IMG/VR virus record: IMGVR_UViG_3300025467_000025
Span: 1 to 49,820 of that record
DNA length: 49,820 nt
Source: a virus
Reading direction: 5' to 3' (one strand)
Within the stretch, counting starts at the first letter, position 1. Each line of letters begins with the position of its first letter. Under the pieces are notes generated by a model. That model did not search any database. It saw only the letters and a list, made by a program, of their open reading frames with translations, and was not told the DNA's origin. A program made the position numbers and the translations under genes. This document shows, piece after piece, positions 1-41,566 of this stretch.

Positions 1-430
1 TCCTTGTCCTTAGCAGTCTTCTTAACTGGAACTTCTTTGTGCTTTACCTTAGGTAACTTAACACCGCGCTTCTTTAATTCAGAATCAGCTCTTTTAACAT
101 CATCGTCTTCGTCATCATCGTCCCATGATTCATCTAATCCAGCCTTATCCTTCTTTTTCATAGCAGCAACAAAATCGGCTAACTTCTTATCTGGATTTGA
201 TTTCTTAAACTTTTCGTAATTTGATTTGAATTTAGGATGCTTAGGATCGCTTAATTGATAAGGACCAGAACCTTCATCTAATTCTTCTTCCTTGTCCTTA
301 GCAGTTTTCTTAACTGGAACTTCTTTGTGCTTTACCTTAGGTAACTTAACACCGCGCTTCTTTAATTCCGAATCAGCTCGCTTTACATCTGGATCTTCGT
401 CGTCATCGTCGTCCCATCCTTCGTAAATGC
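1..430. repeat. 288-bp in-frame tandem repeat inside a CDS
   Basis: The sequence from position 1 recurs almost unchanged from position 289, a period of 288 nt or 96 codons. The first ~90 nt of the two units differ at only a few sites. A shorter, diverged third copy of the acidic/basic part lies near 515-612. The repeat sits in the coding frame of the minus-strand gene and encodes alternating Asp-rich and Lys-rich segments. Confidence 0.85.
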
Positions 431-1124
431 CTTGACCGTAAGTTTCATCTAAGTCATCTTCTTTCTTAGATTTCTTTGCCAACTTGCTCATATCCTTATC
501 TGGATCAGCCTTAGTCTTTGGTAATTTAACTTTACGCTTTCTTAATTCGTCGTCTGCTCTTTTAACATCTGCATCTTCGTCATCATCGTCCCATGATTCG
601 TCTAATCCGGCTGCTTTACGACGACTTCCGATAACTTCGTCCTTTTCAGATTCGATCTTACCGTCCTTATCCCAATCTTTCTTAGCCTTAGGACTCTTCT
701 TGCCTTCTTCTAATTTTTGAAGTTGTGCAATCTTTAACTGTGCAATCTTCTCTCTCGCTTCGCTCAACTTTAGTTTAAGTTCTTCTTTTTCACTTTCGTT
801 GAACATGTCAGAATTTTCTAATTGCTTGCCATATTCGCTAAATTTCATTTCGTATTCGAGATAGTGATAAACTGATGCAATATAATCAGCAGCCTTAGTA
901 ATCTTTGCTTGTACCCAACCTTCTAGTTGTGCATTATCATCTAATTTCTTGAATAATTTTACTGCATAGTTAGCCATCTTATAAAGATCTGCTCTAGCCA
1001 TTGCGCCTTCGTGATCTTCTTCGCCTTGTGGAATAAAATCTTGTGTTGGTTCGACATGTGGATGAGACGGTGGTGTCTCTAAACCTGCATGGATGTCGAA
1101 TTCGTTAATTTGTTTCTTGCTCAT
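1..1124 (-). CDS. Acidic repeat virion-type protein, 3' end outside window
   Basis: The frame is open from an ATG at 1124 to the left edge (at least 374 codons), so the C-terminus is missing. The N-terminal ~130 residues contain a stretch (about residues 40-95) rich in Tyr, Lys and Leu, including LEGWVQAKITKAADYI, which I remember from uncharacterised proteins of marine T4-like phages. The rest is highly charged: three copies of an ESWDDDDED-like acidic patch, each followed by a KRAD-ELKKR-VKLPK basic segment. The last two copies are a 288-nt in-frame tandem duplication. A GATAAATA late element lies 23 nt upstream. The neighbours are head-type genes, so a structural, scaffold or internal head role is plausible but not shown. 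No enzymatic motif is visible. Confidence 0.75.
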   Translation of the reverse strand, partial: MSKKQINEFDIHAGLETPPSHPHVEPTQDFIPQGEEDHEGAMARADLYKMANYAVKLFKKLDDNAQLEGWVQAKITKAADYIASVYHYLEYEMKFSEYGKQLENSDMFNESEKEELKLKLSEAREKIAQLKIAQLQKLEEGKKSPKAKKDWDKDGKIESEKDEVIGSRRKAAGLDESWDDDDEDADVKRADDELRKRKVKLPKTKADPDKDMSKLAKKSKKEDDLDETYGQGIYEGWDDDDDEDPDVKRADSELKKRGVKLPKVKHKEVPVKKTAKDKEEELDEGSGPYQLSDPKHPKFKSNYEKFKKSNPDKKLADFVAAMKKKDKAGLDESWDDDDEDDDVKRADSELKKRGVKLPKVKHKEVPVKKTAKDK

Positions 1125-1147: not shown

Positions 1148-1155
1148 TATTTATC
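1148..1155 (-). promoter_or_regulatory. T4-like late promoter element GATAAATA
   Basis: GATAAATA on the minus strand lies 23 nt upstream of the ATG at 1124. It matches the T4 late consensus TATAAATA at 7 of 8 positions. The stop codon TAA of the preceding gene (1151-1153) lies inside the element. The same octamer precedes several other virion genes here. Confidence 0.65.
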
Positions 1156-1405
1156 GTTTTAGCGGCGCACCGAATATATTAGACTTCATATCTAATGCAT
1201 TGCTCGCGGTTCCTGCTGATGTTTTTGGTTGTACAACTTTTGGTTGTGGCGGTGCTTTAGTTCCACTTTTTCCAGGACTGCCGATGTATGATTTTTTACC
1301 ACGTGCTTTGCCTGGACTTAATTGTGGTGCATCAACTGTGCCGATATTTGCAGACATAGTTGCACCTGCGGTAGCAGTTTCGCCTAATAATTCGTTAATC
1401 TTCAT
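1151..1405 (-). CDS. Small head-type protein with putative capsid-targeting leader
   Basis: An 84-residue basic protein, rich in Gly, Ala, Pro and Lys, with no recognised domain. It starts MKINELLGE, which resembles the T4 capsid-targeting peptide MKTYQEFIAE; LGE would fit the (L/I)xE cleavage rule of the T4 prohead protease gp21. The start lies 11 nt inside the end of the preceding gene, with a GGAGA ribosome site 5 nt before the ATG, so the two genes are probably translationally coupled. Remaining residues look disordered. Function unknown; an internal head protein or head accessory protein is the best guess from leader and position. Confidence 0.7.
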   Translation of the reverse strand: MKINELLGETATAGATMSANIGTVDAPQLSPGKARGKKSYIGSPGKSGTKAPPQPKVVQPKTSAGTASNALDMKSNIFGAPLKR

Positions 1406-2672
1406 CTGATTCTCCAGGGTCAGTCTGACCTTGTTGTGCTTTTAATTTTTTTAATGATGCTCGCGGTTGTTTATCAGTTGGATTTGCTTTTTTGTATGCC
1501 TCCAATTCGTGATAATCTTCTTCGTATTGTATGGCCTTTTCTTCAGCATAGTCACGTAACTGAGGTAATTTAAGATCAGTCAGCATACGATCAACTGCGA
1601 CAAATTTAATTTTTGCATCTCTTTTTGGATCGTCTCGTGTAATCATTTGAACACCGGCTCTAAAACATGCACCGATAAATGACTTTGCAACAACTTCTTT
1701 AGTCTCCGGTGATAGATACTTATTCATTAATTGCATGGTGCCGACAAATGATTTCTGTAATTGTAAATCTTGGACAGTTGGTTGATGACCGAAGAATAAT
1801 ACAAACTGTTGAGAAAGATCTTGAATATAATTTCTTTCTTTTGATGGCACCTCGATCATTACAGGGATGCCATTCTTATACATCGGTTGCCCAGTAGACG
1901 GATCGGGATACGGAGCAAGTTTTGTACTAACTCCTCCACCTTGTGAACTCGAAACAGCAAACGATAATTTATTCATTCGAATAGGTTCGTCGCCAATGAC
2001 ATATCCTCTTTTTGCACCTCTACCTTCGAGTTTAGCAAAATATACTTCAGTTTTAGAAACACTTGATAATGCTTGATAGATATATTTGTGGAATACACCT
2101 TTAATTCCAGCATTGATATCCTCCCATTCTGAACTATGACTAAACTTGTACCATGCATCAGGTTCGTTAGTTTCCGGATCGTATCGGCCAAATTCAAAAT
2201 CAATTTGAATTTTGACAGGTGGTTCGTCTAATTGAAATAACGCATTATATTGTTCGTTACCTTTGCTAAATCCTAAGAACGTAGAATTGCCAATTCTTTT
2301 GTTTACTAAATTGGTTAAGAATTCATTAATTTGCGGTTCTAGTTGTTTGTTGCATTGTGTATCAATGTCACCTACTTTTGGTTTTTTGGCTAGGTATACT
2401 TCATCTGAAATTTCTGGTAAATTAAAAAATGATAATGAACTACCACCAAGGAATTGTCTACTTTGCAATAACTGCGGAGACCATAGTGGCTGTTTATACT
2501 GCGCACTAAACGATTGATTTATATTATGTAATAATTTATCTAAAATTCCCACCATATAAGTACGATTATGTACTTTGAGATCGATCTCATCTGCTGCATG
2601 TTGACCGATGTGAAGATTTCCTCCTTCGTATAGTTTTAGTGATAGATTATTAAATAATTCTCTTAGTAGCAT
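1395..2672 (-). CDS. Nucleotidyltransferase-fold-like phage protein with head-type leader
   Basis: 425 residues. The start MLLRELF is followed by LKLYE-GG, again like a leader ending in an (L/I)xE site. Residues 75-161 carry the signature order of a DNA polymerase beta-type nucleotidyltransferase: LGGSS (75-79), GDIDTQ (101-106) supplying the paired acids, and QIDFEF (156-161) supplying a possible third acid. The C-terminal ~70 residues are charged and end in an acidic, likely disordered tail. I recall similar 400-450 aa proteins in marine T4-like phages, uncharacterised. The stop overlaps the next gene by 11 nt. The fold assignment rests on motifs only; substrate is unknown. Confidence 0.8.
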   Translation of the reverse strand: MLLRELFNNLSLKLYEGGNLHIGQHAADEIDLKVHNRTYMVGILDKLLHNINQSFSAQYKQPLWSPQLLQSRQFLGGSSLSFFNLPEISDEVYLAKKPKVGDIDTQCNKQLEPQINEFLTNLVNKRIGNSTFLGFSKGNEQYNALFQLDEPPVKIQIDFEFGRYDPETNEPDAWYKFSHSSEWEDINAGIKGVFHKYIYQALSSVSKTEVYFAKLEGRGAKRGYVIGDEPIRMNKLSFAVSSSQGGGVSTKLAPYPDPSTGQPMYKNGIPVMIEVPSKERNYIQDLSQQFVLFFGHQPTVQDLQLQKSFVGTMQLMNKYLSPETKEVVAKSFIGACFRAGVQMITRDDPKRDAKIKFVAVDRMLTDLKLPQLRDYAEEKAIQYEEDYHELEAYKKANPTDKQPRASLKKLKAQQGQTDPGESDED

Positions 2673-2674
2673 TA

Positions 2675-2935
2675 TTATCTCTTATCGCCGTACCATAATT
2701 CAAACCATGCCGGAGTTCCTGGTTGTACATTATTTTCTCGTTGGTATCGTCCTTTATCACATTCTATTTTAGGAAAAGCATTTTTTGATCTGTATTCGTC
2801 TAATCTTACTTGTGCGCCCAACCCATCCATTACTTGAACAGCAATTAGTTCGTGGACAGGATCGTCAGGTGCAATATAACAATCTTCGTTGGAAGTTGTT
2901 GGGATATTTTGCGATGTGATTCGATACTGTTTCAT
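2675..2935 (-). CDS. Conserved-type small hypothetical protein
   Basis: An 86-residue soluble protein ending GTPAWFELWYGDKR, with no motif I recognise. It begins on a TAATG overlap with the stop of the upstream gene and ends 2 nt before the ATG of the 425-residue gene. Its place inside the head-type operon argues for a real gene, perhaps a small structural or accessory component. No signal peptide or membrane segment is visible. Confidence 0.7.
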   Translation of the reverse strand: MKQYRITSQNIPTTSNEDCYIAPDDPVHELIAVQVMDGLGAQVRLDEYRSKNAFPKIECDKGRYQRENNVQPGTPAWFELWYGDKR

Positions 2936-3321
2936 TAGATACCGTATTTGTTCTTTTTAATTTTTGCAACTGGTGATGTTTTATTAGTGTTATCTAATTC
3001 AGTGCTTCGATTGCTACCTAATTTTTTAACAGGGCCCGCTCCGACCATTTTAGAAGCAGAATTAATCATTTCTAATTCTTCATCAGTATAAGTGGATAAT
3101 AATGGATCACCTGCAAATGCACCTGCTGCTTGTGTTGGATATTCTGGTGCACCGGCTAACGCAAGCCCGAAACGGTACTGTAGATATGAACTACCGTTCG
3201 ATTTGTTCATACTAATACCGGGCATACTAATGGCACCTTTAAATGCTGCAACTTGATCTTTTGGCATTTTGTTAGGATTTGCCGGGGTATCACTTTCTAA
3301 AATAATTTCGTGAATTTTCAT
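2935..3321 (-). CDS. Head-type protein with putative capsid-targeting leader
   Basis: 128 residues starting MKIHEIILESD; ILE fits an (L/I)xE prohead-protease site after residue 9. The central part (YLQYRFGLALAGAPEY and TDEELEMINSASKMVG) resembles a family of small proteins from marine T4-like phages that I recall only as hypothetical. The C-terminus is Lys/Asn-rich. The gene is tightly packed: its stop forms TAATG with the next start and the upstream gene ends 9 nt before. A small virion component is likely; no biochemical role can be read from the sequence. Confidence 0.75.
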   Translation of the reverse strand: MKIHEIILESDTPANPNKMPKDQVAAFKGAISMPGISMNKSNGSSYLQYRFGLALAGAPEYPTQAAGAFAGDPLLSTYTDEELEMINSASKMVGAGPVKKLGSNRSTELDNTNKTSPVAKIKKNKYGI

Positions 3322-3330
3322 AATGATTCC

Positions 3331-3690
3331 TTAGTTATATTTGTCGTCGCGAATGTGTTCATTAAACTCTTCGTGTAATTTTTCACAAACTTTTTTGGTT
3401 AACTTTTCGTCTAACTCTTCAGGAAGTTCTCGGATTGGAAATTGCGTTAAGTAATTCTTATAGCATTCTAAAGTTGCTTTTCGAAAAATTTCCGGACTAA
3501 ATGTTTCATTCTTTTGATTTTTCTTCAAACACATTGCGATGACTGGATATACATGTCTACGATAACTTTCGTCGTCGTTGTGCATGAAGTATACTAAATC
3601 TTCGGCTAAATCGAATTTTAATTCCGGTTTGCCATTCTTATATTCGATAAAACCGTCTATTTTATTTTCAAACAAATCTTGTATGCGCAT
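3331..3690 (-). CDS. Hypothetical protein with head-type leader
   Basis: 119 residues, acidic and helical, starting MRIQDLFENK. The leader matches the pattern seen in the three following genes, with LFE as a possible (L/I)xE site. The remainder has no recognised domain. It is the first gene of the head-type operon: upstream lie a GATAAATA late element (3738-3745) and a terminator that separates it from the ClpA transcript. The RBS is poor. Confidence 0.7.
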   Translation of the reverse strand: MRIQDLFENKIDGFIEYKNGKPELKFDLAEDLVYFMHNDDESYRRHVYPVIAMCLKKNQKNETFSPEIFRKATLECYKNYLTQFPIRELPEELDEKLTKKVCEKLHEEFNEHIRDDKYN

Positions 3691-6665: not shown

Positions 6666-6694
6666 ATAATAGCATATGTAATGGGTGTAGTCAA
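6666..6694 (-). promoter_or_regulatory. Sigma70-type promoter for clpA
   Basis: On the minus strand TTGACT (6694-6689), 17 nt, TATTAT (6671-6666). The TGA stop of dnaJ (6693-6691) lies inside the -35 hexamer. It would give clpA its own transcript in addition to read-through from the promoter before dnaJ. Confidence 0.65.
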
Positions 6695-7548
6695 TCAGAT
6701 CCAGTGATCTCCTTGTTAATATGTCGTAGTTTTGATACAATTGCCGGATTGGTGATTGCCGGAGTTTTAATATTAATGATGATCACAAACCGTCCTTTGT
6801 GCCCAGTATGGGGATTAGTAAATCCTTTACCTTGACTTGCGAATTCAGTTCCGGTTTCAACTCCTGCACGAACATCCAATTCCATTTTTTGTCCAGTAAT
6901 TAATTGCAGTTTCTTTTTACACCCGATCATGGCTTCGATTGGGTTGATATCAAGTGTAGTATACAGGTCGTCTCCGTGTCTAGTAAATCGATTATCAGGT
7001 GCTACTAATATTGTAACATTTAGATTTCCTCGAGGTGCAGCAGGATTAGAATCGTCTCCGAGCCCTTGGTAGCGTATAGTTGCTCCATTTTCAACACCGG
7101 CAGGTACATTAATTACTACAGTCTGTGGCTTACCGCTAGGAAGGTTGTATGCCGCTTCTAATTGTTTTCCCTGATATGATTCAAGAAGTGTTATTTGGCA
7201 TTGAATGTTCAAATCTCGATTTCGTTGCATATGAGGATGCTGTCTCCCGAACACATCGTGGAAGTGGGCACTAAATGGACCCCCGTTTCCAAAAATGTCA
7301 TGGAAGTGAGCACCAAACGGACTTCCGCCTCCAAAGTGCATTTGCGGTCCGCCCATCCGCAGCTGGTCGTATTCGGCTTTCTTTTGCGGATCGTTTAATG
7401 TATCGTATGCCGCTGAAATGTCTTTAAATTTAGTTTGATCACCGCCTCTATCCGGGTGATGTTTCATAGCAAGACTTCTATAAGCCTTTTTAATTTCGTC
7501 AGGAGAAGCATTTTCGCTAACTCCGAGTGTTTCATAGTAATTCTGCAT
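6691..7548 (-). CDS. DnaJ/CbpA-type co-chaperone
   Basis: 285 residues. An N-terminal J domain (~3-68) contains the HPD motif at residues 31-33 that stimulates DnaK ATPase. A Gly/Phe/His-rich linker (~70-105) follows, then the two-part DnaJ C-terminal substrate-binding region (~110-275; VNVPAGVENGATIRYQGLG is typical). The cysteine-rich zinc finger of DnaJ is absent, so this is a class II (CbpA-like) Hsp40. It is likely to recruit host DnaK. It lies directly upstream of clpA and has a perfect consensus promoter at 7592-7620. RBS GAGGG precedes the ATG. Confidence 0.93.
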   Translation of the reverse strand: MQNYYETLGVSENASPDEIKKAYRSLAMKHHPDRGGDQTKFKDISAAYDTLNDPQKKAEYDQLRMGGPQMHFGGGSPFGAHFHDIFGNGGPFSAHFHDVFGRQHPHMQRNRDLNIQCQITLLESYQGKQLEAAYNLPSGKPQTVVINVPAGVENGATIRYQGLGDDSNPAAPRGNLNVTILVAPDNRFTRHGDDLYTTLDINPIEAMIGCKKKLQLITGQKMELDVRAGVETGTEFASQGKGFTNPHTGHKGRFVIIINIKTPAITNPAIVSKLRHINKEITGSD

Positions 7549-14805: not shown

Positions 14806-15174
14806 TTAGATAATAAAATCAGACAACCCGGGGCGGGTCTGCGTTGCAAATTCGCCAAACATGTCATCAGCCGGCTCATCGTCTGACACTACTAAAATAC
14901 CATTTGGATCGATCCTAAACAGTTCAATTTTATTTTCGTCATCGGTTTCGGAAATTTCGACACCTCGAGTCCATCTGCCATGTTCTACAAGTATCCATTG
15001 TCCGACTGATACAAGAGTTTGTAATGGTCCCACAGCATAAATCTTTGCCCACCGTGGCCGAACTCCTTCACTTGTTCCATTATCACTTCTTAATACGATT
15101 CCACTTGACGTAGTTCGTTCTCCAAAATTCATTTCAGTTACGAGAATGTGATCTTGAATTGCTGTTAATTTCAT
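14806..15174 (-). CDS. GroES-like co-chaperonin
   Basis: 122 residues. The pattern of a Cpn10 fold is visible: IQDHILVTEM at the start, a mobile-loop-like ERTTSSGIVL (19-28), AVGP (47-50), VSVGQWILVEHGRW (55-68). Similar proteins are annotated as GroES-like in marine T4-type phages. T4 gp31 replaces GroES so that host GroEL can fold the major capsid protein; a like role is likely here. The acidic C-terminal tail is longer than in bacterial GroES. Overlaps the upstream gene by ATGA and ends just before a terminator. Confidence 0.75.
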   Translation of the reverse strand: MKLTAIQDHILVTEMNFGERTTSSGIVLRSDNGTSEGVRPRWAKIYAVGPLQTLVSVGQWILVEHGRWTRGVEISETDDENKIELFRIDPNGILVVSDDEPADDMFGEFATQTRPGLSDFII

Positions 15175-20200: not shown

Positions 20201-20755
20201 TTAGTTTACGATGTTGCCGAAATTTAGATTATTGTTTGAATAGACTGGATCTGCAATGTATCCTAAATCTAAAACAGTACCTCTATCTCCGGAAACTTTA
20301 GATCCTGCTGGGGATAAAACACTTCCCATATCTACTATTAGCTGATTAGATTGTAAAATTAATTCTAATAATCCCGCAATAATCGGAATATTAATACCGA
20401 AAATTGAAGTTTGAACATCGCCTCCGTAAACATAATTTCCATTAAGATTCAATGTTCCAGCTAATGTAGGATTGAGATCGTTTTCTAGAGTAGTAGTGGT
20501 TTCTAGATTTACTGTATTTGCTGCACTCGTAATAGCAACAGTATTTCCTGTGCTAGTTAGGCTTTTAAATTCTAAATTTGCAACATTTCGATCTTTGAAA
20601 AGACCGACTCCGGATCCTAAATTAGCACCATTAGAAATATTAGTTTCGGTGTTTAATGCAGTAAAATTAGCATTAACTTTTTGAAAGGCAGTTCGTAAAT
20701 CGTCGCCAGTACCGTCGTTAGCATAATTTCCTAAATTTACTAGTTGTAATGTCAT
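20201..20755 (-). CDS. Short fibre-type protein with shared N-terminal module
   Basis: 184 residues. Starts LVNLGNYANDGTGDDLRTAF followed by QKVNANFTALN, the same module that opens the 2070- and 3853-residue proteins. The remainder is beta-type and Asn/Gly/Leu-rich, including DRGTVLDLGYIADPVYS near the end. It could be an adaptor carrying only the docking module plus a short shaft. Its ATG overlaps the GT25 stop (ATGA, 20752-20755). A weak late-element variant GGTAAATA lies at 20772-20779. Confidence 0.8.
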   Translation of the reverse strand: MTLQLVNLGNYANDGTGDDLRTAFQKVNANFTALNTETNISNGANLGSGVGLFKDRNVANLEFKSLTSTGNTVAITSAANTVNLETTTTLENDLNPTLAGTLNLNGNYVYGGDVQTSIFGINIPIIAGLLELILQSNQLIVDMGSVLSPAGSKVSGDRGTVLDLGYIADPVYSNNNLNFGNIVN

Positions 20756-23741: not shown

Positions 23742-26700
23742 TTATGCCCAAGTACCAACTGAAGTATCAGCACCTGCTGCACTTATTGGGTAAATTTCCA
23801 TTATTGCACCTGCCTGGATATAAGAGCTAGATCCTGGAGTCGATGTACTTAATCCAAAATATGGAATCAGGGTTCCTCCAGTTGTACAATCGAGATTCCC
23901 ATCGATAATGATGCTATAATACTGCGAACCTGATGTAGTATTTGCAATCGTAACACCTGTAGCAAATCCAGAAGTAATATGGTTACTCATTTGATATGTT
24001 TGTGTAGGAGTAGTCTGTGATGAGTTGCCGCATGGGTTAACCCAATAAGTATTTTGAGCTAATACTGCTGTTCCTCCAACTGCAAATTGAGGAGCACTTG
24101 TTAACCTACTGCTATTTGAAAGATATACAGTATATAATATACGGTAATAGTATCTTAATCCACTGCTTATAGTAACTCCCTTACCAAGTAAACTCTGAAC
24201 AGATGCTTGGTTAGTTAATGTATGATTAGCATTTAAAACAAACACTTGTGGATTTTTTACAATGCCGCGTTCTGCATTGTTCGAAGTAAAGTATAAAACC
24301 TTGCCATCAAATTCTGCTGCGCCTTCTACTGCGGTACTTAGATTTGTTCCTGTTTGGAATGTTAATGGAGCAACACTTGCTGTACCTGCTGCTAAAGTTA
24401 ATGAGCCCGGCATTGTTACAGCACTCGGTAAACTTAATGTTACTGCACCCGTGCTTGCCGAAACAGCGATTTGATTTGCTGTACCAGTTAAACTTGTTAC
24501 CGCAGTTTGTATTGGAGTAAATCCTAATGCTGATGTAACTTGGCTTGATGTTAATGTTCCACCGTACGTACCTGTAATAGTTGAAGCAGTACCGCTTACA
24601 TTACCTGTAACATTACCTGTTAGCGCACCTGTGAATGTTGTGGCACTTACACTTGTTAATCCAGCTAATGTAGTAGAAGTTCCGCCTAATGAAATTGATG
24701 TAGTACCAATTGTTACTGAACTATTTGTTAATTTGTTATTAGCAATACTTCCAGCTAACATTGTATTAGTAACAGTTCCGGTGTCAGACGAAGTAATAAT
24801 GCCAGTTACTGCACCAGTTAATGAGCTATTGATACTTGTAACCCCGGTATTAGTAATAGTAACTGCACCGGTTCCTGAACTTACATTAATACCAGTTCCT
24901 GCAACCGCACTTGTAACACCGGCATTTGTTAATGTAATAGTTCCGCCTAAAGAAACAGTTCCTCCACCACTCATTCCGGTGCCTGCTGTAACTGTAACTG
25001 AACTATTTGTTAATTTGTTATTAGCAATACTTCCGGCTAACATAGTGTTAGTAACAGTTCCAGTATCGGTTGTATAAACACCGTTAGTTACTGTACCTGC
25101 ATTACCTGTAATAGAACCTGTAATAGTTGAACTGAATGTCTTAGTACCTGCAATAGTTTGTGTGCCACTTAATAGCATAACTGCTGTGTTATCTACTGCA
25201 ATCGTAATAGCACCTGAACCATTGTAACTTGTACCAGTTAATCCTGTGCCAATTGTTAATGTGTATGGATTAGCGGCTGTAATTGTAATATCCGCTGAAC
25301 CATTAAATGCTATACCGTTGATGTTACGACTAGTTGCTAATATAGTTGCAGTTCCAGCATTACCATCGATACTAACTCCCGAAAGACTTAACGCCCCGCT
25401 AGCTCTATTAAATGGTACACTAGTTGATCCTAAGTATACGCTCGAGTAAACAGTAGGCGCACCGGATAATTTGCTGTATGATAAGCTAGTTAACCAAGTT
25501 GGATCTGCATACGAACTAGATGTGTAAACACCGTTAGTCACTGTACCTGCATTACCACTTACATTGCCTGTAACATTACCTACAAATGCAGTCGATGTGA
25601 CACTAGTTAAACCTGCAATAGTTGTTACGGTATTACCTAATGTTATGTCAGTGGATCCGATTGTAACTTTGCTATTTGCAAGCATTGTGTTAGTTACTGA
25701 ACCTGTTGTTAATACGCTAGTAACATCGGATGTTTGTAATGTAATTGCTCCGGTTCTAGTATTGAAACTAGTAACATTTGCACCTGACGGGATTCGTTGC
25801 CATACAGTTCCACTATAAATGACAAAGTCACCAACATTAAATGTAATATTTCCATGACCGAAATTATGAGTACCTGCGGTAGTTACAACATATTCGTAAC
25901 CTTGAGTACCTGTTCCGTCAGCTAGACTTGGACTATTTGCAGTTGCATCCCATGTACCTTGGTAATTAACACCACCTAATAAACTTGGAGGAATTTGGCT
26001 TGTTGTTAAATAACCGCCAGTTAATGTAGCAATGTTAGTTACTGCACCTGCTTGTCCATTTACACTTAGTACGCCAGTGTTGTTTAATGTTACTGATCCA
26101 CCTAGTGCTAACGACCCGCCACCACTTAATCCAGTGCCGGCAGTAATAGTCATGGTAGCACCGGTAATTTTACTTGATGCTAAATCAGTGATCCAAGATG
26201 GATTTGAATATAAATTGGTTGTATAAACACCATTAGTTACTGTGGCTGCGTTTCCTGTAATCGATCCGCTGATTGGATTACTTACTGTTAAGTTTGTTAA
26301 TGTTCCTACTGTTTGTAAATTTGAATTAATTACAGTTGAATTTAATGTAGTTCCGGTTAATGTTCCTGCCGCTGCGGTTACTGTTCCACTTGCACCTAAA
26401 TTAACTTGTGTACCATTTATCGTTACATATGGATTTGCTATTTTATTATTAGAAATACTTCCAGCTAACATTGCATTAGTAACAGAGCCGGTATCAGTTG
26501 TATAAACGCCGTTAGTTACTGTACCTGCATTACCTGTAATAGAACCTGTAATTGTATTTGTAACAGTTAAGTTAGTTAATGTTCCTACACTTGTTAAACT
26601 TGAATTAACAATACTTGAATTTAGTGTAGTTCCAGTTAAAGTATTTGCACTTGCTGTTACAGTACCGGATCCACCTAAGTTTATAGTAGTTCCATTAATT

Positions 26701-29700
26701 GTTATGCCAGTGTTTAATAGTTTATCATTGCTAATATTTCCAGCTAGCATTGTGTTAGTAACAGTTCCAGTGTCGGATGTATAAACAAGTGTAGTTGGTT
26801 TGTTGCTAATACTGCCCCAAGTTAACTGACTAGTAGTTGCATAGTTTGCATCATTAGTAAACGATGAAACTGCGGTAGGAGCACCCGTAATTTTTGTATA
26901 TGCTAAACTAGCAATCCAGTTTGGATTACTGTAAGATCCGGTTGTATATACACCGTTTGTTACAGTAGTTGCATTGTCTGCAGATGTAGCATTTGCAACA
27001 TATCCAGTAATTTTAGAACCTGCTAATGATGCGAGCCAATTTGGATTATTGTATGTTCCCGAAGTATACACACCATTAGTAACTGTACCAGCATTACCAC
27101 TTACATTGCCAGTAACATTACCAGTTAAGTTTCCTGTTACATTACCAGTTAATGTGCCATGTAAAGTTGCAGCGGTTACATCACCAACGACATTTAAACC
27201 TGTGTCACTTAATGTAGCGCGAATGTTGCTTAGGAGCGTACCGCCGGTGTGGAACGCGATAGTTTTTGTTGCAGTTGCAGTACCGATTGTTAAATTGCCG
27301 TCGCTGTTATATAAGTATGCATCATTTGCACCACTAACAGTCCATCCAACGCTAGTTCCGTTATAGGTACTACTATTAATACCCATATCTATAAAATGAG
27401 TTCCGTCTGTTCCTAAATCATTTTCTGCTACAAAATCTGATGATGCATTTGTTCCATTGCTGTGATTTTGTTGTACTAATTGAACATAAGAATTTACATT
27501 AGCATCGATTTGTAAATCTGAATTAGGATAATCTATACCTTCGTATGCTGTGCCTAAATGTGCTGTTCCTGCAACTCGTATGTTACCACTTAATGTAGCA
27601 TTGGTTGCTGTTAATTGTTGGGTGTTAATTCCCGAACCATCTGTATCCCACCAATCGTTAGATAAACTGTAAAGAATTGAACGAGCAAAACTTCCTGTTC
27701 CTAATATAATACCACCACCATCTATTTGACTCGACAATGTAGCATTACTTGCTAGATAAAGGATCTTACCATTAATACTTGCACTAGTATTGATAGTTTG
27801 TGTTCCATTAACTGTTAAGTTGTTTACTGTTAAATTATTAAAAGTTGGATTAGAGGATGTATCGATATTCTGTGGTAAACTTAATGTTAAATTCTTACCA
27901 CCTGCATCTGTTACATAAACTTGCGCTTGTGTACCATAGACATTTTGCACACCGGTTGCATTTAATGTAATGGCACCGGTAGTAGTATTTTGTTGTAATC
28001 CAGTTCCTGCGGTAATCGAAGTAACAATATTTCCAGTGATTTGTCCGGAAGTAATTGATCCAGTCCACGCGCTAGTTTGTCTTGTACTATCTGGGAATGT
28101 AATACCTCCAGTACCGCCACTTGTTGTTGCTAAGAATTTAATTCCGCTAGTATCAAATGTAAGTGTATTTGATTGTATTGTGTTTGTTCCGGTCGGAGTC
28201 AATGAAAATACTACCTTACTACCTTTAGCAGTATCAGTATAATTTTCTGTCGCTTGAATATCTATACGACCTATACCTAATGTGTTAAATCCAGTTGCTC
28301 CGTAACCATTACCGGCTAGTCTTATCATCACATCGCCGCTTTGTGTAGCAGTAGGGGTATCGAGTGTACCTCGTGCCATTCTTCCTGCAAGCACATTGTA
28401 TGCACCGGTACCAAAACTATCAGATACTAATCTACATGGATTTCCATCCTGATTGATCCAATGTGTCATTGTTCCTGCATTATTCAACGGAACTGTGTTA
28501 ACTAATGCTGATGTACCAAATACAGTTAATGGACTAGCGTTTGGTCCGAAGTCTGTAGATAAGACGTTAAGATTACCGCTGTTAATTTGTGTGCTTCTAT
28601 TGATAACAAACTTACCAGTAGCGCCAGTTGTTCCCAGTAATAAATCTTGTGAAGTATCTACTAGCCCAATTTTATTATTAGAGAATAAGAAGTTACCAAC
28701 TTGTAATCCAGCACCACCTTCAACATATAAATTACCATCGCGAGCACCGATTGCTAAGTCTACTCCTAATGTTTCGTCAAGTACATAAAGCGTACCGGTA
28801 CCTAACCATAATTCTTTAAATCGTTGTGCCGGGCTACCTAATCTCCAAATGTTAGTAGTATATGGTAGGATGTCACTATGCGGAACAATGTTACCACTTG
28901 CTCCCGCATTTAATGTGATATCGGTATTGTCTAGTGTTTTGATACTTAATCCCGCATTAACAATTTGTCGAGCGGTTGTTATTATTGTTCCGCTTGCAGG
29001 TTCTGTAGTTCCGAAATCTGTATTAACAATCACATAAGTTGCATATGTATTTGATCCAACAAATACAACAGTACTGTTTACGGGAATACCTGCACCAGCA
29101 ATGATATCATTAATTTGTAATATAGGAGAAGGAGTAGTTGTAAATGAATATACCGTCCACGGTGCCGAGATACCATTAGTAATACCATATGCCCCAGTTG
29201 TTAATGGAGTAGTTGAACTGTGAGCTATAACTTCTGCAAGTACTAAATTAGCAATATTTGCAATAATTGTACTAGTACCGGAAATTAATGTACCAACTGG
29301 AATCTTAATACTATTAGTTGATAACGAGCCAGTTCCGTTGGGTAAAATAACAATATCACCATTAACATCGTGTCCGGTAATAGTTTGGTCACTTATTGTT
29401 AAGTTTCCTAATTGATTGATACTTGCACTTACTGTTCCATCGCCCGAAATAACTAAGCCAGTGCCGATTTTAATACCACCTAATACACTCGACGAAGCAA
29501 TTGGTAATGTATAAGCGTTCAATGCCGATAATCGTCCATCACCGTCGATAGTTAAATTGTTTCCTACAATAATTCCGCCTAATTCACTCGGACCAGCTTT
29601 AGGTAAAGTATATTCTAATTCTGGAGCAGCATCAACCCATGTCGAATCAAACCAAACATACAGTCTGCCCGAAACAGGATCGTACCATAATTCACCGGTT

Positions 29701-29954
29701 GTTGGACTTGTTGGAGCAGTTGTTGAAGTATTAATTAATGAAGTACCTTCGGGAATAGTTATTGTATTCCAGAATAAATTAGTACCATCATTAGTAAGGT
29801 ATTCTCCGATATGTCCAGTTGGTGTTGGAATTACTCCTTGTAGGTTTCCATACAGTTCTTGAAAATTAGCATTTATTTTTATAAATGCGGTTCGTAATGG
29901 ATCTCCGCTTCGATCATTTGCTGTTTGTCCAATATTGATTAATTGCTTCGTCAT
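23742..29954 (-). CDS. Very long tail-fibre/adhesin with repeats
   Basis: 2070 residues. The N-terminal module (LINIGQTANDRSGDPLRTAF, KINANFQELYG) matches the other fibres. The centre is built from imperfect repeats: at least six copies of TVTNGVYT, with GNVTGNxTGN strings and NxKLxNSxVT units. The C-terminal ~250 residues differ: AAEFDGKVLYFTSNNAERGI then a Cys-containing beta region, possibly the receptor-binding tip. Residue content is dominated by Gly, Thr, Asn, Ser, Val. No late element precedes it, so it probably depends on read-through from the promoter before the 3853-residue gene, only 2 nt upstream. Confidence 0.9.
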   Translation of the reverse strand: MTKQLINIGQTANDRSGDPLRTAFIKINANFQELYGNLQGVIPTPTGHIGEYLTNDGTNLFWNTITIPEGTSLINTSTTAPTSPTTGELWYDPVSGRLYVWFDSTWVDAAPELEYTLPKAGPSELGGIIVGNNLTIDGDGRLSALNAYTLPIASSSVLGGIKIGTGLVISGDGTVSASINQLGNLTISDQTITGHDVNGDIVILPNGTGSLSTNSIKIPVGTLISGTSTIIANIANLVLAEVIAHSSTTPLTTGAYGITNGISAPWTVYSFTTTPSPILQINDIIAGAGIPVNSTVVFVGSNTYATYVIVNTDFGTTEPASGTIITTARQIVNAGLSIKTLDNTDITLNAGASGNIVPHSDILPYTTNIWRLGSPAQRFKELWLGTGTLYVLDETLGVDLAIGARDGNLYVEGGAGLQVGNFLFSNNKIGLVDTSQDLLLGTTGATGKFVINRSTQINSGNLNVLSTDFGPNASPLTVFGTSALVNTVPLNNAGTMTHWINQDGNPCRLVSDSFGTGAYNVLAGRMARGTLDTPTATQSGDVMIRLAGNGYGATGFNTLGIGRIDIQATENYTDTAKGSKVVFSLTPTGTNTIQSNTLTFDTSGIKFLATTSGGTGGITFPDSTRQTSAWTGSITSGQITGNIVTSITAGTGLQQNTTTGAITLNATGVQNVYGTQAQVYVTDAGGKNLTLSLPQNIDTSSNPTFNNLTVNNLTVNGTQTINTSASINGKILYLASNATLSSQIDGGGIILGTGSFARSILYSLSNDWWDTDGSGINTQQLTATNATLSGNIRVAGTAHLGTAYEGIDYPNSDLQIDANVNSYVQLVQQNHSNGTNASSDFVAENDLGTDGTHFIDMGINSSTYNGTSVGWTVSGANDAYLYNSDGNLTIGTATATKTIAFHTGGTLLSNIRATLSDTGLNVVGDVTAATLHGTLTGNVTGNLTGNVTGNVSGNAGTVTNGVYTSGTYNNPNWLASLAGSKITGYVANATSADNATTVTNGVYTTGSYSNPNWIASLAYTKITGAPTAVSSFTNDANYATTSQLTWGSISNKPTTLVYTSDTGTVTNTMLAGNISNDKLLNTGITINGTTINLGGSGTVTASANTLTGTTLNSSIVNSSLTSVGTLTNLTVTNTITGSITGNAGTVTNGVYTTDTGSVTNAMLAGSISNNKIANPYVTINGTQVNLGASGTVTAAAGTLTGTTLNSTVINSNLQTVGTLTNLTVSNPISGSITGNAATVTNGVYTTNLYSNPSWITDLASSKITGATMTITAGTGLSGGGSLALGGSVTLNNTGVLSVNGQAGAVTNIATLTGGYLTTSQIPPSLLGGVNYQGTWDATANSPSLADGTGTQGYEYVVTTAGTHNFGHGNITFNVGDFVIYSGTVWQRIPSGANVTSFNTRTGAITLQTSDVTSVLTTGSVTNTMLANSKVTIGSTDITLGNTVTTIAGLTSVTSTAFVGNVTGNVSGNAGTVTNGVYTSSSYADPTWLTSLSYSKLSGAPTVYSSVYLGSTSVPFNRASGALSLSGVSIDGNAGTATILATSRNINGIAFNGSADITITAANPYTLTIGTGLTGTSYNGSGAITIAVDNTAVMLLSGTQTIAGTKTFSSTITGSITGNAGTVTNGVYTTDTGTVTNTMLAGSIANNKLTNSSVTVTAGTGMSGGGTVSLGGTITLTNAGVTSAVAGTGINVSSGTGAVTITNTGVTSINSSLTGAVTGIITSSDTGTVTNTMLAGSIANNKLTNSSVTIGTTSISLGGTSTTLAGLTSVSATTFTGALTGNVTGNVSGTASTITGTYGGTLTSSQVTSALGFTPIQTAVTSLTGTANQIAVSASTGAVTLSLPSAVTMPGSLTLAAGTASVAPLTFQTGTNLSTAVEGAAEFDGKVLYFTSNNAERGIVKNPQVFVLNANHTLTNQASVQSLLGKGVTISSGLRYYYRILYTVYLSNSSRLTSAPQFAVGGTAVLAQNTYWVNPCGNSSQTTPTQTYQMSNHITSGFATGVTIANTTSGSQYYSIIIDGNLDCTTGGTLIPYFGLSTSTPGSSSYIQAGAIMEIYPISAAGADTSVGTWA
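25068..27100. repeat. Coding repeats of the 2070-residue fibre
   Basis: Imperfect repeats encoding six copies of TVTNGVYT and adjacent GNVTGN strings. At DNA level, blocks such as the one around 25068-25104 recur near 26496-26530 and 27063-27094 with few changes. The repeats stay in frame and are part of the protein, not an RNA or CRISPR array. Confidence 0.8.
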
Positions 29955-29956
29955 TC

Positions 29957-41566
<11,610 letters not shown>

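Follow-up and report, generated by a model that had tools for sequence, protein, structure and literature searches.

Phages are already known to package enzymes, to use capsid-targeting leaders and to inject multidomain proteins. In bacteriophage T4, the Alt protein and IPI-IPIII are produced with an N-terminal propeptide ending in L/I-x-E and are cut by gp21; they travel inside the head until they are ejected (PMC9026906). The gp21 protease cleaves after L/I-X-E; the IP leaders are 10-19 residues long and head-targeting, and T4-type head-packaged proteins bear an N-terminal propeptide of 7-65 residues with L/I-x-E at its end (consensus: PMC9026906). Alt is an ADP-ribosyltransferase, and neither Alt nor the IPs are described in that paper as a Pol-beta nucleotidyltransferase (NTase) or as a multi-enzyme polyprotein.

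Three other systems invite comparison. The polyvalent proteins of phages and conjugative elements (Iyer et al. 2017, PMC5512222) combine several enzyme domains, Pol-beta NTases, GNATs and metallopeptidases among them, and have been predicted to enter the host together with the DNA. Unlike the proteins considered here, they contain a plain Pol-beta NTase only in proteins of conjugative elements, and a metallopeptidase of their own is credited with their processing, whereas the relatives described below have T4-type prohead-protease sites between modules. The RlaP/phage RNA-repair sets combine a Pol-beta NTase with an ATP-dependent ligase, for which restoration of lost nucleotides before ligation was proposed, and the available part of that account does not mention packaging of RlaP (PMC7824862). 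Here the HxGH partner is additional, and membership of RlaP was rejected because the PF10127 model had no match in the NTase family or in 10 related genomes. Finally, African swine fever virus (ASFV) has a Pol-beta-type PolX and a ligase, both of which are among the fold matches reported here. The ASFV virion carries PolX and ligase. In contrast to the present case, ASFV is a eukaryotic DNA virus, its enzymes are DNA repair enzymes and there is no phage head-protease processing.

The locus analyzed here lies within a viral DNA stretch of 49 820 nucleotides (IMG/VR record IMGVR_UViG_3300025467_000025), the whole of which is termed the window; its source is a T4-like phage from freshwater. The best reading of the data as a whole, given a probability of roughly 0.5, is that the window encodes an active NTase that is packaged, trimmed and injected, and that mends nucleic-acid ends, probably those of tRNA, early in infection.

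Motifs and predicted fold of the NTase

The 425-residue product of the gene has phrog_19290, a family of unknown function, as its sole family match (E = 4e-24), and identical copies of the gene occur in three IMG/VR contigs (L004, L005 and L009). The gene and its motifs are as follows.

1395 to 2672, minus strand: predicted Pol-beta-fold NTase gene, 425 aa, phrog_19290 (motifs, PHROG match, model)
2439 to 2447, minus strand: GGS motif, residues 76-78, with G77 and S78 invariant (alignments)
2355 to 2372, minus strand: GDIDTQ, residues 101-106, with D102 and D104 as predicted metal ligands, on strand 102-108 (alignment, model)
2190 to 2207, minus strand: QIDFEF, residues 156-161, with D158 as predicted third catalytic acid, plus E160, on strand 154-162 (alignment, model)

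The original prediction, made from the DNA alone, had assigned an NTase-like enzyme to this reading frame and numbered the acids D102 and D104; the frame is real, and both motifs and numbering were confirmed. It had also assigned GGS, GDIDTQ and QIDFEF the order and spacing of Pol-beta-type NTases. The order holds but the spacing does not, as the gap from GS to DxD is usually 9-13 residues in the Pol-beta NTase superfamily and is 23 residues in the window NTase.

Relatives of the NTase are encoded in 178 stretches found by an IMG/VR scan and, by tblastn, in 22 phage isolates with identities of 24-27%, which are phages of Vibrio, Campylobacter (Firehammervirus) and Xanthomonas. A further relative, gp048 of Stenotrophomonas phage Moby, lacks a leader and carries the motifs GS..GDVDI..QIDLEL. 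Residues G77, S78, D102, D104, D158 and E160 were unchanged in an alignment of 48 diverse relatives, and the same six were invariant in 11 sequences that included Vibrio, Campylobacter and Xanthomonas phages at 25-26% identity, so the motifs are not the product of chance. Conservation of the acids in homologues had been set as a test of the original prediction, and all four proved invariant in the 48 relatives. The enzyme is likely to be catalytically competent. Alternatively, the protein could have a structural role inside the head and retain no more than the fold of an NTase, and it does adjoin other small leader-bearing proteins; however, all catalytic motifs are invariant down to 25% identity, and this explanation is considered very improbable.

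A Pfam search with the NTase returned nothing, and none of the 48 members matched a curated Pfam NTase model at E<=1; the family is too divergent for those models. A PDB sequence search gave no usable match. No relative turned up when bacterial and archaeal genomes were scanned for the family, and cellular context is therefore of no help in assigning a function.

An AlphaFold2 model based on the 48-sequence alignment had a mean pLDDT of 92.4 and a pTM of 0.89, with residues 1-17 as its sole long disordered stretch. Elements follow one another in the model as they do in the Pol-beta superfamily (helix, GS, helix, strand with DxD, helix, strands, strand with DxE). Foldseek comparison with the PDB matched the model to DNA Pol beta, Pol mu, ASFV PolX, poly(A) polymerases, Cid1 and TUTs, as well as to SpoT/alarmone synthetases and a few unrelated entries. 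These matches were weak, none having E < 1e-3 and the best credible one having E = 1.2e-2 with a probability of 0.97. Comparison with predicted viral structures gave two strong matches, both nameless. The fold, a second test set for the original prediction, was thus returned as a confident Pol-beta-type model whose credible PDB matches, though weak, came nearly all from that superfamily. A Pol-beta-superfamily fold is very probable on the strength of this model, which is read as confirming the superfamily while placing the protein in a divergent family; this family has an additional, large C-terminal half (about residues 200-400) that is kept in all relatives.

The leader peptide and its predicted cut site

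The N-terminal features of the NTase are listed below, with a slash marking the predicted cut here and in the sequences that follow.

2625 to 2672, minus strand: leader MLLRELFNNLSLKLYE, residues 1-16, predicted to be capsid-targeting, with a predicted gp21-type cut after E16 (LYE/GGN)
2616 to 2624, minus strand: conserved GGN, residues 17-19, predicted mature N terminus (leaderless relatives begin MGGN)

With 16 residues and the junction LYE/GGN, the window leader fits the description of a T4-type propeptide, and its end matches, by sequence, the site of the T4 gp21 prohead protease. In 54 of 54 distinct leader-bearing relatives [LIV]-x-E immediately precedes the conserved G[GS]N. Across these 54 sites P1 was always Glu, P3 was Leu (32), Ile (17) or Val (5), and P2 was any of twelve kinds of residue. 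The leader itself is 6-22 residues long, rising to 124-143 in relatives that have a further domain fused ahead, and the site stays constant. An invariant P1, a restricted P3, a free P2 and a variable leader length together point to selection on a cleavage site. Comparison gave strong support to the claim that the leader is capsid-targeting-like. Homologues of gp21 and gp23 are present in larger related genomes (see below).

In Vibrio phage pv27, Xanthomonas phage X1 and Stenotrophomonas phage Moby the NTase is leaderless and starts with MGGN, so that the predicted cut would yield an N terminus identical to the one these relatives encode from the start codon. Against the preferred reading, these leaderless forms mean that the NTase also works outside this packaging route. 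They also fit a different explanation, namely that the enzyme is cytoplasmic and unpackaged and that LxE before GGN is a coincidence of descent or the site of another protease. The pattern of the 54 sites speaks against this, as does the recurrence of cut sites at the next joint, between NTase and ligase (see below).

Virion data, head genes and neighboring genes

Homologues of gp21 and gp23 are present in seven larger related genomes, namely the four largest IMG/VR relatives, CP220, pv27 and X1. Neither was found in the records of the window phage (49.8 kb, and L005 at 116 kb), both of which may be fragments; the window carries further T4-type genes, such as that for a clamp loader (phrog_168). 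For phage IBB_35, whose NTase homologue is YP_009168520.1 (gene 1-57), the part of the source available reports a proteome of 38 virion proteins (PMC3322345). The homologue CP21_014 is unmentioned in the text of the CP21 paper. Of the 11 bands identified in a CP220 virion gel, none is given as the NTase gene product (PMC2853527). This last result would suit an unpackaged cytoplasmic enzyme, although minor proteins would escape an 11-band Coomassie gel, and on balance that explanation is rather improbable. Packaging and trimming of the NTase is, from the sequence comparison, the strongly favored reading.

Of the six leftmost genes in the window, four begin with leader-like peptides, as set out below.

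1 to 1124, minus strand: protein starting MSKKQINE/FDI, acidic and repetitive, a candidate internal head protein (leader-like start); 484 aa in L005, truncated here by the window edge
1151 to 1405, minus strand: 84-aa protein, leader MKINELLGE/TAT, candidate co-packaged (leader similarity)
2935 to 3321, minus strand: 128-aa protein, leader MKIHEIILE/SDT, candidate co-packaged (leader similarity)
3331 to 3690, minus strand: 119-aa protein, leader MRIQDLFE/NKI (leader similarity)

By eye, the 119-aa protein resembles a segment fused before LME/GGN of the NTase in L033 and L034. Elsewhere in the window, three proteins share the N-terminal motif IGxTxNDGTGDxxRxAFxKxNxNF and are, by sequence, likely to be paralogous tail or fiber proteins, and the phage encodes its own Clp-type ATPase, DnaJ-like and GroES-like proteins.

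20201-20755, 23742-29954 and 29957-41518, minus strand: IGxTxNDGTGD-motif proteins of 184, 2070 and 3853 aa
4371-6632, minus strand: Clp-type ATPase (phrog_4871)
6691-7548, minus strand: DnaJ-like protein (by sequence)
14806-15174, minus strand: small GroES-like protein (phrog_931, head morphogenesis)

Polyprotein architecture in relatives

The metagenomic loci number about 90, with some contigs counted twice, and about 85 of them encode the NTase as the opening module of a polyprotein of 926-1919 residues, in which it is followed by a minimal KxDG ligase, an HxGH adenylyltransferase and a variable tail. The key residues of the ligase (K44, D46, G47, E127, E274 and K286) and of the HxGH module (G327-H328-x-G330-H331) are invariant, and a model of the two modules together had a pLDDT of 86. 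Foldseek matched the HxGH module to PPAT, FAD synthetase and NMN adenylyltransferases, and the ligase module to Thermococcus DNA ligase, ASFV ligase and an archaeal RNA ligase; the modeled fold did not separate RNA from DNA ligases. In architecture, most relatives resemble the polyvalent proteins, whose single polypeptide carries a number of effector domains predicted to be delivered with the DNA; the window protein, a single enzyme, does not.

Where the NTase adjoins the ligase, [LIV]xE is present in 51 of 52 distinct proteins, usually before Ala, against a background of 37%, which is the frequency of [LIV]xE in windows of the same size within domains. Relative to shuffled expectation, LxE was enriched in linkers (69 observed vs 48 expected) and in tails (312 vs 190), and was depleted inside the polyprotein domains (366 vs 563). 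In one locus (L093) the NTase and the ligase-HxGH part are split into two adjacent genes.

Several additions to the polyprotein were observed. In L045:4877-7564 the tail contains an HD_4 domain (PF13328, 2e-17), of a type to which SpoT-like ppGpp hydrolases belong, and is a candidate packaged alarmone hydrolase. The polyprotein at L010:6001-9534 has at its C terminus (residues about 945-1172), also behind an LxE site, a second and different Pol-beta-like domain (SGSNAAYTYTDHSDVDVHLVV; phrog_36119, 1e-45). In L044:7593-8006, L066 and L080 a metallopeptidase-like HExxH segment (AHELTHALQ) is fused ahead of the NTase and followed by LxE/GGN. Lastly, the motif CWKGYxxxGTKxKxGxxVxNCV recurs at polyprotein C termini (e.g. 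L013 and L018), in a cyanophage protein (L122 gp147) and in L005:9008-9934, a neighboring gene of the window phage; it is possibly a packaging or DNA-binding tag.

The association with a ligase raises another explanation, in which the packaged NTase and ligase fill and seal ends or gaps in the entering phage genome, much as the PolX and ligase of ASFV might. The Foldseek matches to Pol beta, Pol mu, ASFV PolX, ASFV ligase and archaeal DNA ligases are consistent with this. However, RNA ligases were matched in the same search, the NTase has no recognizable DNA-binding domain, and the ligase module ends just past motif V without an OB domain, unlike ordinary DNA ligases; the separate ligase gene of X1 ends at the same point. 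Repair of phage DNA is considered unlikely.

Gene cassettes in isolated phages and the window phage

In X1 and Moby the NTase, a gene of no assigned function, the ligase and the HxGH enzyme are encoded by consecutive genes upstream of the baseplate hub gene. The gene between NTase and ligase is joined to the ligase in other phages, as represented by phrog_12709. By eye, a D...(E/S)xK pattern is present in the X1 and Moby intervening genes and in the pv27 gene adjoining its ligase, and the pattern suggests a nuclease fold.

L003:8008-9012, L121:3091-4035 and L001:10942-11736: gene between NTase and ligase, or related nuclease-like candidate

Phage pv27 encodes, at a distance of 1.3 kb from the NTase, a KTDG-HxGH fusion without detectable homology to the ligase module. 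The cassette of cyanophage S-H9-1 combines a ligase-like gene of KWDG type with an HxGH gene that is homologous, and no NTase was detectable in it.

In CP220 the leader and NTase are present, and no ligase module or other partner was detected. Likewise, no ligase or HxGH partner was found in the window phage records (49.8 kb and the 116-kb L005), which are possibly incomplete. The window gene stops within what is a linker in its relatives, ahead of the cut site and the ligase module.

1398 to 1475, minus strand: C-terminal tail of the NTase, about residues 400-425, matching the NTase-ligase linker of relatives

By sequence, the window phage is an exception among its close relatives in having the NTase alone. 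The solitary NTase of the window phage and CP220 could be taken to mean that the protein is an Alt-like effector, one that nucleotidylates a host protein or blocks host tRNAs in the manner of MenT toxins and so brings about host takeover or arrest at entry. It would be packaged as Alt is; Pol-beta NTases of transferred polyvalent proteins have been predicted to modify proteins (PMC5512222); and MenT NTases extend tRNA acceptor ends, according to the part of that source available (PMC11541572). Against this stand the large C-terminal half (residues about 200-400) kept in all members and the fact that, in most relatives and in independent phage lineages, the NTase is linked with a ligase and with an HxGH adenylyltransferase; this linkage argues for nucleic-acid end repair rather than Alt-like modification of proteins. 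An effector of this kind is thus not favored, with a probability somewhat above that of phage DNA repair.

Proposed role in infection

The reading preferred here, repair of nucleic-acid ends by an injected enzyme, would proceed as follows. The NTase, with its 16-residue capsid-targeting leader, would be made late in infection and carried by the leader into the prohead core. A T4 gp21-type protease would cleave after E16 to give a mature protein starting with GGN; in most relatives, cleavage in the head would divide the polyprotein into separate NTase, minimal ATP-ligase and HxGH adenylyltransferase. The NTase would then be ejected along with the DNA. In the new cell it would extend damaged 3' ends of nucleic acids, most likely of tRNAs cleaved by host defense nucleases, and the ligase, where present, would seal the extended ends. 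Because the enzymes would be delivered with the DNA, repair could begin ahead of phage gene expression.

End repair is proposed because phage Pol-beta NTases accompany RNA ligases, the precedent being RlaP in the part of that account available (PMC7824862). Action on nucleic-acid ends is given about an even chance, and action on RNA in particular is more tentative. Note that the HxGH enzyme has no obvious step in RNA repair, and RNA repair alone does not explain it; a cofactor-restoring role is possible, and the ligase module could act on DNA. A broader proposal, put forward with some reserve, is that T4-like phages of a widespread group package three nucleotidyl-transfer enzymes (Pol-beta NTase, covalent ligase and HxGH adenylyltransferase) in the head as a kit that a protease sets free, with optional hydrolases and acetyltransferases, and that this kit is injected for nucleic-acid repair or cofactor restoration from the first moment, and that the window phage kept the NTase alone.

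Novelty and implications

The original prediction had regarded as new a packaged NTase that would target host RNA or protein at entry, and this needs qualifying: the plain Pol-beta NTase type had been predicted only for conjugative elements, but Pol-beta-superfamily domains in transferred multidomain proteins had already been predicted (PMC5512222). No earlier description of a prohead-processed polyprotein of this kind was found in the open-licence literature. As far as the searches reach, two elements are new: T4-like phages have a Pol-beta NTase that bears such a leader, and a precursor of three enzymes has prohead-protease sites where its modules join.

If the proposal is correct, T4-like phages would deliver ready-made repair enzymes, beyond restriction inhibitors and ADP-ribosyltransferases, and their counter-defense against nucleases would be active ahead of phage transcription. 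The head-maturation protease would free several enzymes from one precursor, in the manner of RNA-virus polyproteins. PHROG 19290, whose function has so far been unknown, would gain a testable one, and the rule of [LIV]xE before a conserved domain start could be used to find injected effectors in uncharacterized T4-like phages.
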